A DNA stretch of 64,000 nucleotides. Source: Leptotrichia shahii (lineage in GTDB: Bacteria; Fusobacteriota; Fusobacteriia; Fusobacteriales; Leptotrichiaceae). This document shows, one piece after another, positions 8,768-60,116 of the stretch; position 1 is the first letter of the stretch; each line of letters begins with the position of its first letter. The stretch is from positions 1,240,001 to 1,304,000 of the forward strand of contig NZ_AP019827.1 in the NCBI RefSeq assembly GCF_008327825.1, given 5' to 3'. A program made the translations under genes and the position numbers. Under the pieces are notes generated by a model. That model had not been told where the DNA came from. It saw only the letters and a program-made list of their open reading frames with translations, and ran no database searches.

Positions 8768-9013
8768 TATACTATTTCCCATTAAAATAATATAATTGGT
8801 ATACCTTCTGTTACTCAAAGGGTCAAGACCCCTTGCTTCAAGATATTTATTTTATTAAATTCTAAGTTTGTATAGTTATCGAACAGGTCTAATGTATTCT
8901 CACTTTATCCTATTATTAAAACAATAAATTTGATATATCTTCTACAAGGAATTAAGACTCCTTGTCAGAAACTGTAAAATATAATTTCTATTTTTCAAAT
9001 GGATTTAGCATTA
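8768..9013 (+). repeat. repeat B, interrupted by a copy of repeat A
   Basis: The left end TATACTATTTCCCATTAAAA (8768-8787) and the right part from 8915 (ATTAAAACAATAAATTTG through to GATTTAGCATTA) together reproduce the B element at 43052-43174. The sequence between is foreign to B and contains an A core. ATTAAAA occurs at 8781-8787 and again at 8915-8921, as expected for a 7-base target duplication. The distal B end supplies the TAA stop of the downstream esterase gene. Confidence 0.7.
8788..8914 (+). repeat. repeat A copy nested in repeat B
   Basis: Contains the core CAAAGGGTCAAGACCCCTTG (8816-8835), the shared right arm CTTCAAGATATTTATTTTAT and the terminal GAACAGGTCTA (8881-8891), which is the exact reverse complement of the left end TAGACCTGTTC of the copy at 27300. 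Its left arm is diverged. Confidence 0.65.
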
Positions 9014-15921: not shown

Positions 15922-15995
15922 ATAAAACATATATTTAAAAATTTTTTTATTATTTTCATTTCAAACTAAAAACTTAAAAAATTTATATGAATTAT

Positions 15996-16168
15996 ATCTG
16001 ACAGCTCCCCATTATCCCTTGATAATGACAGTCCTATGGATATTATCCATAGCCCCAGCAAAAAAGATAGTCAATCCCTATGCTTCGGCAGTTATTCCTT
16101 TCAACTTATTTCACAGAATCGACTTTTCTCCGTAAATTTACTTTTAATAACTGCACCTCTATCATATA
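15996..16168 (-). promoter_or_regulatory. lysine riboswitch (L box) aptamer
   Basis: Read on the minus strand, the conserved L-box blocks occur in order: AGAGGTGC near the 5' end, AGTAA and ACGGAGAAAAGTC, GAAAGGAATAACTGCCGAAG, TTGCTGGGGCTATGGATA, and the closing GGGGAGCTGTC. The closing P1 helix can be drawn (TTATATGATAG with CTGTC-AG-ATATAA). The promoter lies just upstream and a terminator downstream, before lysA. It should repress lysA-lysC-SDR-dapF-dapA when lysine is abundant. Confidence 0.95.
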
Positions 16169-16177
16169 ACTTATATT

Positions 16178-19827: not shown

Positions 19828-19932
19828 TATACTCAAACTCATTTAAAATTAAACTGTTAAAAACTGTATAAAATAAAGTCTAAGTAAAATAATCATAGCT
19901 TTTGTGTTTGATTTTAAATCAATCTTACTATA
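19828..19932 (+). repeat. repeat C copy 1
   Basis: A 105-base element beginning TATACTCAAACTCATTTAAA and ending CTTACTATA, with the shared middle TCTAAGTAAAATAATCATAGC and the subterminal TTTTGTGTTTGATTTTAAAT. It matches copies at 24017, 53023 and 58733. Confidence 0.75.
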
Positions 19933-21536: not shown

Positions 21537-21854
21537 ATTTTTAGTATTTCTCTCCTTTCTAATAATTTTTATTTAGTCATTTGTAAAAGTCTGAAAAGTA
21601 CGATAAATACAGTATTTTACATTTAATTTTCTTCTTTTCTCCACTTTTGGACAAGGGGCTTAACCATAAATACTACTGTTATTCAATTTTACTTTTACAA
21701 CTGCCTAGATAATTTTTATTATTTATCTTAAATAAATTAAATGACTTTTTTAAATTTATCACAATTAATCAAACTTGTCAAACCTTTTTCAATCTTCAAA
21801 TCAAATTTACATAATTAAATATTTATGTTTGTAAAATTTTTTTTATTTCTATAA
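21537..21854. other. intergenic between divergent DUF3290 and ktrB
   Basis: No gene seen. Around 21651 a short ACAAGGGGCTTAACC resembles half of the A/B repeat core but no full element can be drawn. I looked for a c-di-AMP (ydaO) riboswitch before the potassium genes and did not find one. Confidence 0.4.
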
Positions 21855-24016: not shown

Positions 24017-24122
24017 TATACTCTAACCAATTTAAAATCGAACTATTAAAGATTATATAAACTTAGGATTTAAATAAAATAGTCAGAGCTTTTGAGTTCT
24101 GTTTTAAATCAATTTTACTATA
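24017..24122 (+). repeat. repeat C copy 2
   Basis: A 106-base element from TATACTCTAACCAATTT to ATTTTACTATA. The interior AAACTTAGGATTTAAATAAA and AGAGCTTTTGAGTTCTG align with the other C copies. It lies just after ktrA. Confidence 0.75.
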
Positions 24123-52984: not shown

Positions 52985-53190
52985 TTCTATTTTCTAAATT
53001 TAAAAATAATATTTTTTATTAATATACTCAAACATATTCAAAATTGAACTATTAAAAATCATATAAATTTAGGGTTTAAGTAAAATAGCCCTAACTTTTG
53101 AGTTTGGTTTTAAATCTATTTTACTATAACAAGGGGTCAAGACCCCTTGCTAAAATAACTATTTAGTTTGCTTATATCCTAGTTTGATTT
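52985..53190 (+). repeat. worn repeat A copy interrupted by repeat C
   Basis: The exact palindrome CAAGGGGTCAAGACCCCTTG is at 53130-53149, immediately after the end of a C copy. Left-arm-like DNA (TTTCTAAATTTAAAAATAAT) lies before that C copy, in the order expected if C had inserted into A. The right arm is diverged, so limits are approximate. Confidence 0.45.
53023..53128 (+). repeat. repeat C copy 3
   Basis: A 106-base element from TATACTCAAACATATTC to TATTTTACTATA, with interior AAATTTAGGGTTTAAGTAAA and TTTTGAGTTTGGTTTTAAAT. It is nearly identical to the copy at 58733. Confidence 0.78.
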
Positions 53191-53204
53191 TAAATAATTC
53201 AAAA

Positions 53205-55145
53205 TTATTTTTTAAATTCTTTATAAATTTTATTTTTATCTCTTACTGTAACTCCATTACTTGTCTCAATTATCTTAAAACTTTCTGGGTCTGCACCTTT
53301 AATTTCCCGATCTTCAATATACACTTTATTCTTATCTTTTGCATAACCAAACATTAATTGTACAAATGATGAAGTATCAGCCCCTTTTACTTTGGCGAAA
53401 ACTTTATTTGGATTCAATTCATCTAATCTAAATGCGTCAAAATAATAAACCCCATTTTTATCTTGAAAATAACCCATAGACTCAGATTCATACGAATTAT
53501 CAGCATTAGAATATTTAAAAGAATTTGCATCAAAATTTAAAGCAACTATTTCATATACTTCTTTACCAGCTTTATTTTTTAACACATAAACTTTATCTTT
53601 AGTTTTTAAGAAAAAAATAATATCTTCATTATTTTTAAAGTCACGACCCACAAATTCAAATCCATCTGGATTTATACCTTTCATTTTATTTCCATAATAA
53701 TAAACATTGTTTTTATCTCTTGAAAATTCATCATTCAAAACCTCAAAACTATTTCTATCTGCACCTGCTATTTTTTTCAAGCCCATTTTATACAATTCAT
53801 TTTCGTAATACACGTTATTTTTATCACGAAAATAATTTCCCGAATAACTAAACGTTTCAAAAGTTTTAGAATCTACTTTAGGATTTTTTACAACAGCTGT
53901 TTTTACACTTTTTAGCTCACCAGTTTCTTCATCAAATACTGCAATAAGTTTATATATATTCTTATTATCATTTAAAAAATTGATTGGTAAATTTGGTCTA
54001 TTAACAAGTCTTGTAACTTTAAATCCAGCTGAACTTATATCATTTAATTTTCTTCCTGCGTAATAAACATTTTTCTTGTCATACGAAAAACCATTTTCTT
54101 CTCCAATAGTAAAACTGCTTTTATCCACATCCTGTAACTGCACAACATTATATCCTGCATAATAAACATTATTTTTGTCTTTAGAATAATCACTATTTTC
54201 CATTACTTCAAAAGTATCTTTATCAGCATTTTTTATTATTTTAAGATAACCAGCTTCCTTATACGGTGTCATCACGTATACATTTTTATCATCTTTTCCA
54301 TAAACAACCATACTTGGACTGCTTAAATAATTTTCTATTATTTCAAACTTTTCAGGATTTTTTATATTCACTTTTTCTCCCAAATAGTAGACTTCATTTC
54401 CATTTTTAACCAAATTACTATCCAAAACTTTAAAATCTTTTTCATTTATTTTCCCAAGATTTTTAACATCTCCAAAGTAATAATACAGGTTATTCTTATC
54501 TCTGGCATAATTTGTTTCAGGAATTCTTCTAAAAGTTTGAGGATCTGCATCTTTTATAATGTCTACTGCAGCATACACATTTTTATCATCCTTTGAATAC
54601 ATTCCATCCCCAATTATTTTAAATGTTTTTGGATTCGCACCTTTAATTTTTTCTCCTGAATAATAGACCGCATTTTTGTCTTTTGCATAACTATGGTCTG
54701 CTTCCAGAACTACAAATGAATTTACATCTGCATTTGAAATTTTGTCTGAATCATAATATACATTTTTATCATCCTTTGAATAAAATTCATTCAAAACTTT
54801 TATTGTTTTTGGATTTGCTCCATTTATTTTGTGAATCCATTCATTAATTGGTCTATAAACATTATTCTTATCTCTTGAATAATACTGTGGCAGCACTTCA
54901 AAAGTTTTACTGTCCACATCTTCAAACGATTTATTTCCTGAAAAATAAACATTTTTCCTATCCTTTGCATATTTATCATTCAGTATTTTAAACGTTCCTA
55001 AATCCACATTTTCAACTTTAAATTCTGAATCATCTTCTTCACTGTATTTGTAATAAACTGCATTATCCTTTTTCACATATTCTGCCATTCCTAAATTAAC
55101 TAAAATAAATACTCCAGCAATAATTTTAAAAAATTTACTTTTCAT
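53205..55145 (-). CDS. DKNYY-repeat secreted protein 1
   Basis: About 646 residues from the ATG of MKSKFF, which has GGAGGG upstream. Signal peptide with VLVNLGMAEYVKKDNAVYY at the cleavage region. The mature protein is a chain of roughly 15-20 DKNYY repeats: (K/R)DKNNVYY.G.K(I/M) followed by an acidic turn (A.A.PKTF..L or VD.KTF). The repeats alternate about every 25-45 residues, suggesting a long beta-solenoid or array of strands. Exported; a surface or outer-membrane-associated role is inferred. It is a tandem paralogue of the next gene. Confidence 0.82.
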   Translation of the reverse strand: MKSKFFKIIAGVFILVNLGMAEYVKKDNAVYYKYSEEDDSEFKVENVDLGTFKILNDKYAKDRKNVYFSGNKSFEDVDSKTFEVLPQYYSRDKNNVYRPINEWIHKINGANPKTIKVLNEFYSKDDKNVYYDSDKISNADVNSFVVLEADHSYAKDKNAVYYSGEKIKGANPKTFKIIGDGMYSKDDKNVYAAVDIIKDADPQTFRRIPETNYARDKNNLYYYFGDVKNLGKINEKDFKVLDSNLVKNGNEVYYLGEKVNIKNPEKFEIIENYLSSPSMVVYGKDDKNVYVMTPYKEAGYLKIIKNADKDTFEVMENSDYSKDKNNVYYAGYNVVQLQDVDKSSFTIGEENGFSYDKKNVYYAGRKLNDISSAGFKVTRLVNRPNLPINFLNDNKNIYKLIAVFDEETGELKSVKTAVVKNPKVDSKTFETFSYSGNYFRDKNNVYYENELYKMGLKKIAGADRNSFEVLNDEFSRDKNNVYYYGNKMKGINPDGFEFVGRDFKNNEDIIFFLKTKDKVYVLKNKAGKEVYEIVALNFDANSFKYSNADNSYESESMGYFQDKNGVYYFDAFRLDELNPNKVFAKVKGADTSSFVQLMFGYAKDKNKVYIEDREIKGADPESFKIIETSNGVTVRDKNKIYKEFKK

Positions 55146-55185
55146 AAAAAATCCCTCCAAATCCTTTTTTAAATAATTTATTCAA

Positions 55186-55286
55186 CAGACCTATTTGATA
55201 ACTTAATTTTTTTATTTCACGAGAGGGCAAAAACCCTTGCTTCAGAACATTTGTTTTATTAAATTCTAAGTTTTCAAACAAATCTA
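55186..55286 (+). repeat. repeat A copy between the DKNYY genes
   Basis: A 101-base element with CAGACCTATTTGATAAC at the left, altered core CGAGAGGGCAAAAACCCTTG, then the shared CTTCAGAACATTTGTTTTAT and terminal AAACAAATCTA. It lies between the two DKNYY paralogues. Confidence 0.7.
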
Positions 55287-55424
55287 AATAAACGCTTAAA
55301 AACATTTAAAACCCTTCAAAATTGAATTAGATAATTAAAAAGAATTTTAGCAGGATAATTATGATTTTCTAAATTCTTTTTTAAAGCAGTTTTACTAAAA
55401 TATAAATAAAATAATTTTTACTTG

Positions 55425-57620
55425 TCACTCACAATCATTTTTATAAACTCTATTTTTATCCTTAACTACAACTCCCTCATCTTCCAGTATGACAGTAAAA
55501 CTTGGCACATCCACCCCTTTAAATTCCTTATATTTACAATAAGCTCTATTCTTATCTTTGGAATATCCATATCCAAATGCTTTAAATGTTGGGATATCAG
55601 CCCCTTCTAGTTTAATAAAGGCATTCTGCACATCCTTTGCTTCCAAATTTAATAATTTTCCATAATCAAGATAATAAATCCCATTTTTATCTTTAAAATA
55701 ATTACTCGTATTTTTATTTGCTATATCAAATGAAGCACTGTCAAAATTTAAAGGTACTATCTCATAATCTCCTTCTCCAGTTTCATCTTTCCAAAAATAT
55801 ACACCATTTTTATTTTTTACAATATCTGAACCGACAAATTTAAATCCTTCTGAACTAATATTCTCAATTTGTTTTCCAAGATAATAGACATTTTTATTAT
55901 CCTTTGCAAAAAAATTATCCATTTCGACAAAGCTGTTCCTATCACTACCTTCGACCTTTTTCAGTTCCTTCTTATTCATATCATAATAAAAAACGTTGTT
56001 CTTATCTCTGTAATAACTCCCCGTGTATTCCTTAACAAGTTCAAAGCTCGGAGCATCGACTTTCACATTTGTTACATTAGACAATTTTATATTTTTCAAA
56101 TTATATCTTTCATCATCAAATCCATAAGTAAATTTATACAAATTCCTGCTGTCTGTCAAAAAAGCAATTTTTTCAGAATCTCCAGAATTAACAGTTAAAT
56201 CAATAATTTTAAATCCTTGTGGACTTATTCTGTCTAACTTTTTTCCATAAAAATAAATACTGTTCTTATCATGCGAAAAGCCATTTTCTCCAATAGTAAA
56301 ACTGTCTTTATCTACATTTTTCATTTGTACAACATCAGAATGTGTAAAATAAATATTGTTTTTATCTTTTGTATACATACTGTTTTTCATTACTTCAAAA
56401 GAATTTACATCTGCATTTTTTATTATTTTACTTGAATAAGTTTCATCAAATTTTGAAATTGCATATACATTTTTATCATCTTTTCCATAAATAAAATTTG
56501 GAAAGTTATAATATTTACTCAAAATTATTTCAAAAGTTTCTGGACTTTTTATATTCAATTTTTTCCCTTCTGCAAAAATTCTATTTCTATTTTTTACCAC
56601 GTCAATTCCATCAAAATATAAAATTTTAAGAGTTTTATTGTCAATTTTATCAATTTTTACTTCCCGATAATAAAGATTATTTTTATCCTTTGAATAATAC
56701 GTTGTTTTAGGAAGCCTTTCAAAAGTTTTTGAATCTGCCTCTTTTATTTTGCGTCCTCCAATAAAGACACTATTTTTATCTTTTGAATACATCTGAACAA
56801 GATCACTAGGCTCTAAAATAACTTCAAAAGATTTTGCATCAGCTCCTTTTATTTTTTCACCAAGAAAGTAAACATTATTTTTATCTTTTCCATAAGCTAC
56901 GTTTCCCTCTATGGCTTCAAAAGTAGCTACATCGACATTTTCCATCTTTTGTCCAAAATTCAAAAATACATTTTTATCATCCTTCAAATAAACCTGATCT
57001 AATATTTTTATCGTATCAGGATTCGCATCCTTTATTTTATCAGAGCCACTGTACACATTATTCTTGTCTTTTGCGTAATAATCAGGCATTATTATCTGAA
57101 ATGTACTTTTATCAACATCGTATATCGGTGTTCCAGCATAATAAATATTATACCTGTCCTTTGAATAACTTTCATCAATTGCTTCAAAACTGTCTAAATC
57201 CTGAACATATTCAACTTCAAAAAAACTTCCTCCAATATACAGTTTACCATTATTTCTAAAATACAAAAGTTTATTTTTATTTTTGTAAAGTTTGAAATCC
57301 TTTGGATTTATCTCCATTTTTTCATCATAATTATAAATATATTTTTTATCTTTCCCATTGACTTCCCCAATTACCTGAAAAGTCTTAACATCAGCATCTT
57401 CTAGCTTCTTGTCAATACAAAAAACATTTTTACTATCTTTCCCATAAATCTCATTTAATTTCACAAATGTCTTAAAATCTGCGTCTTCCACTTTTCTTTC
57501 ATCAGTCTGCGATATTTTATCCATATAGTAAACAGCATCATCTTTTTTTATATACTCAGCCATTCCCAAATTTGCCAAAAGAAAGACAAGCACAACAATT
57601 TTAGAAAACTTATTTACCAT
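55425..57620 (-). CDS. DKNYY-repeat secreted protein 2
   Basis: A 731-residue paralogue of the gene downstream. It shares the signal peptide end (LLANLGMAEYIKKDDAVYY), the repeated YxKDKNNVYY.GxKI units and the ending VVVKDKNRVYK. About 20 repeats can be followed along the chain, with variants such as RNRIFAEGKK where the YY is lost. GGAGGG precedes the ATG. The two genes are separated by repeat A and another about 100 bases, so they may be transcribed together or singly. Confidence 0.82.
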   Translation of the reverse strand: MVNKFSKIVVLVFLLANLGMAEYIKKDDAVYYMDKISQTDERKVEDADFKTFVKLNEIYGKDSKNVFCIDKKLEDADVKTFQVIGEVNGKDKKYIYNYDEKMEINPKDFKLYKNKNKLLYFRNNGKLYIGGSFFEVEYVQDLDSFEAIDESYSKDRYNIYYAGTPIYDVDKSTFQIIMPDYYAKDKNNVYSGSDKIKDANPDTIKILDQVYLKDDKNVFLNFGQKMENVDVATFEAIEGNVAYGKDKNNVYFLGEKIKGADAKSFEVILEPSDLVQMYSKDKNSVFIGGRKIKEADSKTFERLPKTTYYSKDKNNLYYREVKIDKIDNKTLKILYFDGIDVVKNRNRIFAEGKKLNIKSPETFEIILSKYYNFPNFIYGKDDKNVYAISKFDETYSSKIIKNADVNSFEVMKNSMYTKDKNNIYFTHSDVVQMKNVDKDSFTIGENGFSHDKNSIYFYGKKLDRISPQGFKIIDLTVNSGDSEKIAFLTDSRNLYKFTYGFDDERYNLKNIKLSNVTNVKVDAPSFELVKEYTGSYYRDKNNVFYYDMNKKELKKVEGSDRNSFVEMDNFFAKDNKNVYYLGKQIENISSEGFKFVGSDIVKNKNGVYFWKDETGEGDYEIVPLNFDSASFDIANKNTSNYFKDKNGIYYLDYGKLLNLEAKDVQNAFIKLEGADIPTFKAFGYGYSKDKNRAYCKYKEFKGVDVPSFTVILEDEGVVVKDKNRVYKNDCE

Positions 57621-58188: not shown

Positions 58189-58617
58189 TTACAATTCTAT
58201 TTTTCCAACTCTTTTAGCATGTCTGCCACCTTCAAACTCTGTATTTACAAATGCTTCAACACAAGCCATCCCTAAATTTTCACCTAGGACTCTTGCTCCT
58301 AATGCTATAATATTTGCATCATTATGAAGCCTTGCAAGTTTTGCCGTGTATTCGTTGTGACAAAGAGCGGCACGAATTCCTTTTATTTTATTTGCAGCAA
58401 TAGAAATTCCAATTCCAGTTCCGCAAATTAAGATTCCAAAATTCACTTCCCCGTCTAGAATTTTCTGGCTAACTTCCTTAGCAATATCAGGATAATCAAC
58501 CGAATCCAGCGTATTAGTTCCCACATTCACAATTTCATATCCCTTGCTTCTAAGTTCCTGCATAATTTTATTCTTAAATTCCACTCCTGCATGATCATTT
58601 CCAATTGCTATCTTCAT
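58189..58617 (-). CDS. rpiB: ribose-5-phosphate isomerase B
   Basis: A 142-residue RpiB/LacAB-type isomerase: IAIGNDHAGVEFK at the N-terminus, ICGTGIGISIAANK with the catalytic cysteine near residue 66, and the AALCHNEYTAKLARLHNDAN block. It interconverts ribose 5-phosphate and ribulose 5-phosphate. LacA/B is less likely in a lone gene. Between intergenic repeats on both sides. Confidence 0.94.
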   Translation of the reverse strand: MKIAIGNDHAGVEFKNKIMQELRSKGYEIVNVGTNTLDSVDYPDIAKEVSQKILDGEVNFGILICGTGIGISIAANKIKGIRAALCHNEYTAKLARLHNDANIIALGARVLGENLGMACVEAFVNTEFEGGRHAKRVGKIEL

Positions 58618-58659: not shown

Positions 58660-58857
58660 TTTTATCTATTTTTTATTTGACAACGGGGCAAAACCCTCGC
58701 TTCAGAACATTTATTTTATTAAATTCTAAATGTACTCGAACTCATTTAAAACTGAACTATTAAAAATTATATAAATTTAGGGTCTAAGTAAAATAGTCAT
58801 AGTTTTTGAGTTTGGTTTTAAATTAATTTTACTATATATAGTTTATGAACAAGTCTA
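58660..58857 (+). repeat. repeat A copy interrupted by repeat C
   Basis: Left part with core CAACGGGGCAAAACCCTCG and CTTCAGAACATTTATTTTAT; right end TATAGTTTATGAACAAGTCTA. Comparison with the copy at 8788 shows the C element sits at the GTATAG position of the right arm. About 95 bases of A remain around 104 bases of C. Confidence 0.7.
58733..58836 (+). repeat. repeat C copy 4, nested in repeat A
   Basis: A 104-base element from TACTCGAACTCATTTAAAAC to ATTTTACTATA. Both flanks are recognisable repeat A. Confidence 0.78.
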
Positions 58858-59859: not shown

Positions 59860-59980
59860 TAACACTAAACACCATTTTAAAAATAGAAATTATATTTTAT
59901 ATTATTTGCTAACAAGTGGGCTTGATCTCTTACAAAGAAATTTATAATTAGTCTGCTATTTAAAAATAGAAAATAGCATA
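59860..59980 (-). repeat. repeat B copy near the second ttcA paralogue
   Basis: A 121-base reverse-orientation B: TAACACTAAACACCATTTTA at one end, AGAAATTATATTTTAT inside, core CAAGTGGGCTTGATCTCTTA and AAATAGCATA at the other end. More diverged than the other full copies. Confidence 0.6.
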
Positions 59981-59998: not shown

Positions 59999-60116
59999 TA
60001 GACCTTTTACCTTTTCGTTAGCTATACGAACTCAGAATCTAATAAAATAAATATCCTGAAGCAAGGGGTCTTGACCCCTTGTATAGATAAAAAAACTTAG
60101 GTTATCGAACATATCT
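59999..60116 (-). repeat. repeat A copy upstream of the second ttcA paralogue
   Basis: A reverse-orientation A of about 118 bases: TAGACCTTTTACCTTTTCG at one end, perfect core CAAGGGGTCTTGACCCCTTG at 60062-60081 and GTTATCGAACATATCT at the other. It follows repeat B by under 20 bases. Confidence 0.72.

Follow-up and report, generated by a model that had tools for sequence, protein, structure and literature searches.

The 102-bp repeat C, copies of which lie in the window (the whole stretch of 64,000 nucleotides of Leptotrichia shahii that was analysed), is very probably a non-autonomous MITE that is moved in trans by a 940-bp IS of the IS630 family and that, at 58.7 kb, inserted into an older repeat of the A family. 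The copy number of C, the ends that it has in common with the IS, the duplication of a TA, the empty sites in other species, and the nesting in both directions were observed directly. The 940-bp IS would be the actual helper that moves C.

An alignment of 40 copies gives C a length of ~102 bp, beginning with TACTC and ending with ACTA; most of the outer ends read TATA, and the inverted ends of C are imperfect (TATACTCGAACCCATTTAAAAT versus TATAGTAAAACTGATTTAAAAC). The 2.16-Mb genome contains 41 matches, and even the weakest full copies (E ~1e-19) are far beyond chance; one copy (L037) is located on a second contig of 18,220 bases. The count of at least 40 copies was obtained by scoring the best 40 of 254 first-look candidates. 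As the longest frame across the centre comprises at most 55 codons in 38 of the 40 copies, C is non-coding. C is thus short, non-coding, and multicopy, and bears terminal inverted repeats, as is the case for IS630-family MITEs. In addition to the nested copy described below and a copy at 53 kb, the window harbors:

19830-19930, plus strand: C element (profile match, 62 bits)
24019-24120, plus strand: C element (profile match, 79 bits)

The stretches neighbouring these two copies were without matching gene order in eight congeners. In the genus, C is found in at least 28-31 copies in nine congeners and in 2-7 copies in three; outside Leptotrichia, genome comparison gave at most one marginal match in any genome. 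A shorter C pattern searched against genome contigs led to two named Leptotrichia genomes, a long pattern gave zero matches in the genome-contig search, and C was absent from the plasmid and phage records searched. A literature search, which left out most subscription journals, found no paper on Leptotrichia MITEs; as far as checkable, C is a MITE new to Leptotrichia, the kind of element itself being ordinary.

The first-pass annotation described the copies of C as little diverged and the family as possibly recent; neither statement holds. Pairwise identity averages 82%, with a maximum of no more than 94%, and identity to the consensus averages 88.5%; the compared copies were the best matches to one copy, and true divergence is, if anything, larger. 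The near-identical young copies belong to the A family. Since no pair of C copies is more than 94% identical, the copies give no sign of present mobility of C.

In the search for a helper, the ends of the IS630-type (PF13358) genes found across the genus were compared with C. Complete ISs of 939-940 bp carry both ends like C: the C ends TATAGTAAAACTGATTTAAAACCGAACTC and TATACTCGAACCCATTTAAAATTAAACTA match the IS ends TATAGTAAAACCTATTTAAAACTGAACTA and TATAGTGAAAC..., the ends of the 940-bp IS also being given as TATAGTAAAACCTATTTAAAACTGAACTA and TATAGTGAAACTYATACAAAACCGACCT, compared with the C end TATAGTAAAACTGATTTAAAACCGAACTC. The right end of C shows ~82-89% identity to the IS termini over at least 28 bases, and the first bases of the left end differ, with TACTC in C versus TAGTG or TAGTA in the IS. 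C and an autonomous IS630-family IS thus have ends in common, as a MITE derived from such an IS would have. The likeness is limited to the outer ~28 bp; since the middle of C is unlike the IS, C did not arise from it by simple internal deletion. Two frames of the IS match PF01710 (HTH_Tnp_IS630), PF13358 (DDE_3), and the NCBI IS630 model, and the break between them lies at a run of nine A. Complete 940-bp copies are present in this genome (two, 98% identical), in G001 (three), and in G012 (one), with decayed remains elsewhere; they are missing from the C-rich congeners G003, G005, G008, G009, and G010. It is supposed that the IS630-family transposase binds both ends of C and excises or copies the element, which would then insert at a TA that becomes duplicated. 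As a side observation, the 940-bp IS is 96-97% identical between G001 and this genome, compared with ~88% for the stretch of neighbouring genes at 57.6-58.7 kb, and this difference in identity suggests a recent transfer of the IS.

The target site is resolved by comparing species. In L. hongkongensis (G007), the filled site reads AATTACAAT-TA-(TAGTAAAAC...GAGTA)-TA-ATTTATTTTTC, with the element in parentheses, and the orthologous site in G011 is empty (AATTACCAT-TA-ATTTATTTTTC), as it is in G005. The DNA inserted in G007 relative to G011 amounts to 102 bp plus the duplicated TA, a clean insertion; duplication of the TA target is seen both in this pair and at L026, where C lies in a B repeat. 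The outer TATA of C consists of the target TA and the terminal TA of the element itself. The earlier proposal that C targets TATA was therefore nearly right: only the TA that is duplicated is the target, and the other TA belongs to the end of C. The expectation that the location of C varies was borne out at the level of species, between which it differs and empty sites are found. At L075 1033-1052, a copy of the 940-bp IS630 element directly adjoins a degenerate palindrome (caagagggtcttgatcctttTATAG), as C does at 53 kb, and hairpin-adjacent TA sites may be favoured as targets.

These empty sites with clean TA duplications, together with the ends common to C and the IS, speak against a different reading, in which selection maintains C as a terminator module or structured regulatory RNA and its place in A is incidental. 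The copy at 58.7 kb is intergenic, and one of its RNA strands folds slightly better than shuffles (z -1.9), as this reading would have it; against it, folding is about that of shuffles for the reverse strand and for the copy at 53 kb, and the consensus fold is weak (-2.8 kcal/mol), with two-sided changes in one of 13 pairs. In a search of the window, C had no match to any Rfam family. An RNA structure was rejected on the fold tests and the Rfam search, which revealed no well conserved fold, and this reading is exceedingly unlikely. The sole Rfam match in the window is a lysine riboswitch elsewhere (15994-16169, minus strand, 116.6 bits).

The preferred reading of C as an IS630-type MITE is further examined at 58.7 kb, upstream of a minus-strand reading frame (58189-58617), where the following features are nested:

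58669-58732, plus strand: left part of a split A, comprising a degenerate palindrome (CAACGGGGCAAAACCCTCG) and the proximal right arm (A-profile 23-90)
58731-58732, no strand: left target copy, which reads TG and is presumably a mutated TA (TATA at this end in nearly all other copies; TA duplication at another locus)
58733-58834, plus strand: C element, very probably an IS630-type MITE, TACTCGAAC...TTTTACTA (40-copy alignment; profile match 1-102; IS-like ends)
58835-58836, no strand: right copy of the duplicated TA target (TA duplication; in-silico removal)
58837-58856, plus strand: distal right arm and end of the split A (TATAGTTTATGAACAAGTCT; joined A-profile match 23-110)

C splits A at the GTATAG position (AAATTCTAAATG / TACTCG...TTTTACTA / TA / TATAGTTTATGAACAAGTCTA). 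In-silico removal of C together with one TA yields a single A match over 23-110 and raises the A score from 44.6 to 55.2 bits. The 104-base C reported in the right arm of A is thereby confirmed, the 104 bases being 102 bp plus TA. C is missing at 58.7 kb in all 12 of the 12 congeners, where 70-250 bases separate the two anchors that are 491 bases apart here. The same intergenic stretch of G002 contains CTTTAAAATATTTGTTCTGCCAAATTTTAAATATATATTTAAACAAATCTAAT, a degraded A right arm without C, representing an empty site; the consensus old-type arm was matched equally well by one of 5,000 shuffles and the exact local arm by six of 2,000. Because G002 has the A arm without C, A most likely came earlier and C later, after the split from G002. 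In the proposed course of events, A would have been the older element, already in decay when C inserted at a TA of its right arm. It could instead be argued that recombination or slippage between AT-rich repeats, not insertion, put C in the A arm: palindrome-joined hybrids attest to recombination among the repeats of this genome, and the left target copy reads TG instead of TA. Both halves of A are, however, collinear around a complete C, removal of exactly C and a TA restores A, and other C copies are bordered by clean TA duplications, which makes such an origin very unlikely. Insertion of a mobile C into a pre-existing A at this locus, as originally proposed, agrees with the joined A score and the empty sites in other species.

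From this nest and two further loci, the first-pass annotation derived a general sequence in which B was active first, A next, and C last. Neither of these other loci carries the suggested arrangement. At 53 kb, the features are:

53025-53126, plus strand: C element abutting a solo palindrome (profile; common to two sister species)
53130-53149, no strand: solo palindrome CAAGGGGTCAAGACCCCTTG, A arms not recognisable (arm comparison)

C indeed directly precedes an exact palindrome here, as had been noted, but no A arm is recognisable, and an insertion of C in A was rejected, as the A score is 33.1 joined versus 35.0 nested. This C copy is also present in G002 and G003 and missing from the other congeners in which the stretch could be located. 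At 8.8 kb, where A had been thought to be inserted in B, a hybrid is followed by a separate B:

8769-8892, plus strand: hybrid repeat of B left arm, palindrome (8816-8835), and A right arm (profile; arm comparison)
8907-9010, plus strand: separate, nearly complete B adjoining the hybrid (profile positions 9-117)

As an observation apart, positions 53,000-55,900 of the window, compared with L099 and L100, are 96-98% identical to G002/G003, with ~83-91% in most neighbouring stretches; this suggests a recent exchange with the G002/G003 lineages or unusual conservation.

Nesting was assessed by comparing the profile score of the host repeat with the insert in place and with the flanks joined. C lies inside B at L026 (B score 42.8 to 59.0 bits on joining). 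Conversely, B lies inside C at L115 (41.2 to 48.9 bits) and at L134 (16.2 to 22.6 bits), in each case with a TA at the junction, and a young-type A lies inside C at L112 (30.2 to 56.6 bits). Two further candidates for C in A, both with C at a broken A end, were left uncounted: joining changed the score from 10.6 to 10.0 bits at L016 and only from 48.6 to 49.2 bits at L043. For nine copies of A, the closest other copy is 99-100% identical; A has undergone a recent burst. Further A, B, and C features of the window are:

55187-55282, plus strand: A element, old type (profile; present in G002 and G003, empty in other congeners)
55309-55396, plus strand: probable ancient C relic, weak match of 14 bits (profile; six congeners match weakly at the equivalent position)
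59863-59979, minus strand: B element adjoining the A at 60009-60116 (profile)
60009-60116, minus strand: A element, young type (profile, 102 bits)

A strict stratigraphy, with B first, A next, and C last and recent, has in its favor that C lies in A at 58.7 kb and is missing there in all congeners. It is hardly credible in view of B in C at two loci and A in C at a third, the ~82% identity of C compared with the nearly identical A copies, the probable C relic at 55.3 kb common to seven species, and the hybrid structure at 8.8 kb. The general order consequently fails: nesting is reciprocal, the youngest copies are A, and two of its three cases do not hold. Since nesting runs in two directions, the activity periods of A, B, and C overlapped, and C insertions have an old A subfamily on one side and a young one on the other. 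Nested pairs would accordingly each date a single event only. Nested insertions around C make relative age readable case by case; as a caution, the order of whole families is not readable from one nested pair.

C appears to work in the same way as RUP of Streptococcus pneumoniae, a likeness drawn by description and without a claim of membership. RUP has 107 bp, ~108-110 copies, a TA target, and ends like those of IS630-Spn1, its proposed mover, and has been reported to lie within or close to IS elements (PMC2229807, PMC3049150). C resembles it with ~105 bp, tens to ~100 copies per ~2-Mb genome, a TA target, intergenic location, inverted ends as in a resident IS630-family IS, and occurrence in or near other mobile DNA. 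It differs in its host, which belongs to another phylum, in its restriction to one genus, and in its nesting in and around other MITEs; the similarity of the ends to the IS extends over ~28 bp in C compared with 9 bp listed for RUP. With Correia/NEMIS of Neisseria, C shares the length of the short form (~107 bp), TA in the termini, inverted ends, and target duplication (PMC2229807), in a different host. The candidate helper corresponds to the IS630 family of IS630/Tc1/mariner type by its PF01710 and PF13358 frames and TA target, whereas C, unlike the ISs of this family, carries no transposase. C would represent a RUP-like MITE for Leptotrichia, with a resident candidate helper and empty sites at the species level.

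The A repeats (~110 bp) have the ends TTAGAYMTGTTCGATAAC, which also delimit a 906-bp DDE_Tnp_1 (IS5-type) IS in G004; judged by these sequences, A is a putative MITE with the ends of this IS. For B, the ends TATACTATTTCCCATT and TAATACTAAATCCCATT are similar to those bounding three genes of a second IS630 type at a spacing of 1,115-1,117 bp, and the assignment of B to this second IS630-type IS is weaker than that of A. A fourth family, D (~136 bp; L132, L114, L121, L139, and window 21595-21705), contains the same palindrome; a parent IS was looked for and none was found.

A 20-bp palindrome, CAAGGGGTC(AA/TT)GACCCCTTG, forms the core of A, B, and D, families with different ends, and occurs at 8816-8835, 53130-53149, and 60062-60081 of the window and at L112-L151. 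The exact sequence occurs 27 times in this genome, 0-23 times in congeners, and twice in one further genus of the family. Among 45 palindromes, 17 are flanked by two A arms, eight by two B arms, and five by two D arms, seven have neither, five have one recognisable arm, and three have arms of mixed families, namely B/A at 8.8 kb and D/A at L118 and L120; selection of the sample for nearly intact palindromes makes it uninformative on palindrome conservation. With somewhat less than an even chance, the palindrome is an exchangeable module, at which recombination or template switching makes hybrid repeats. The shared palindrome and the arm hybrids may explain the same core in MITE families with different ends. 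In being one short unit with different modules, it resembles BIME, NIME, and BOX (PMC3049150), from which it differs in that several MITE-like repeats, each with ends of its own, are built around it and three arm hybrids occur. Repetition of another kind is seen at 53205-57620 (minus strand), where two long frames contain many ~90-base repeats (D1-D4) that are apparently coding.
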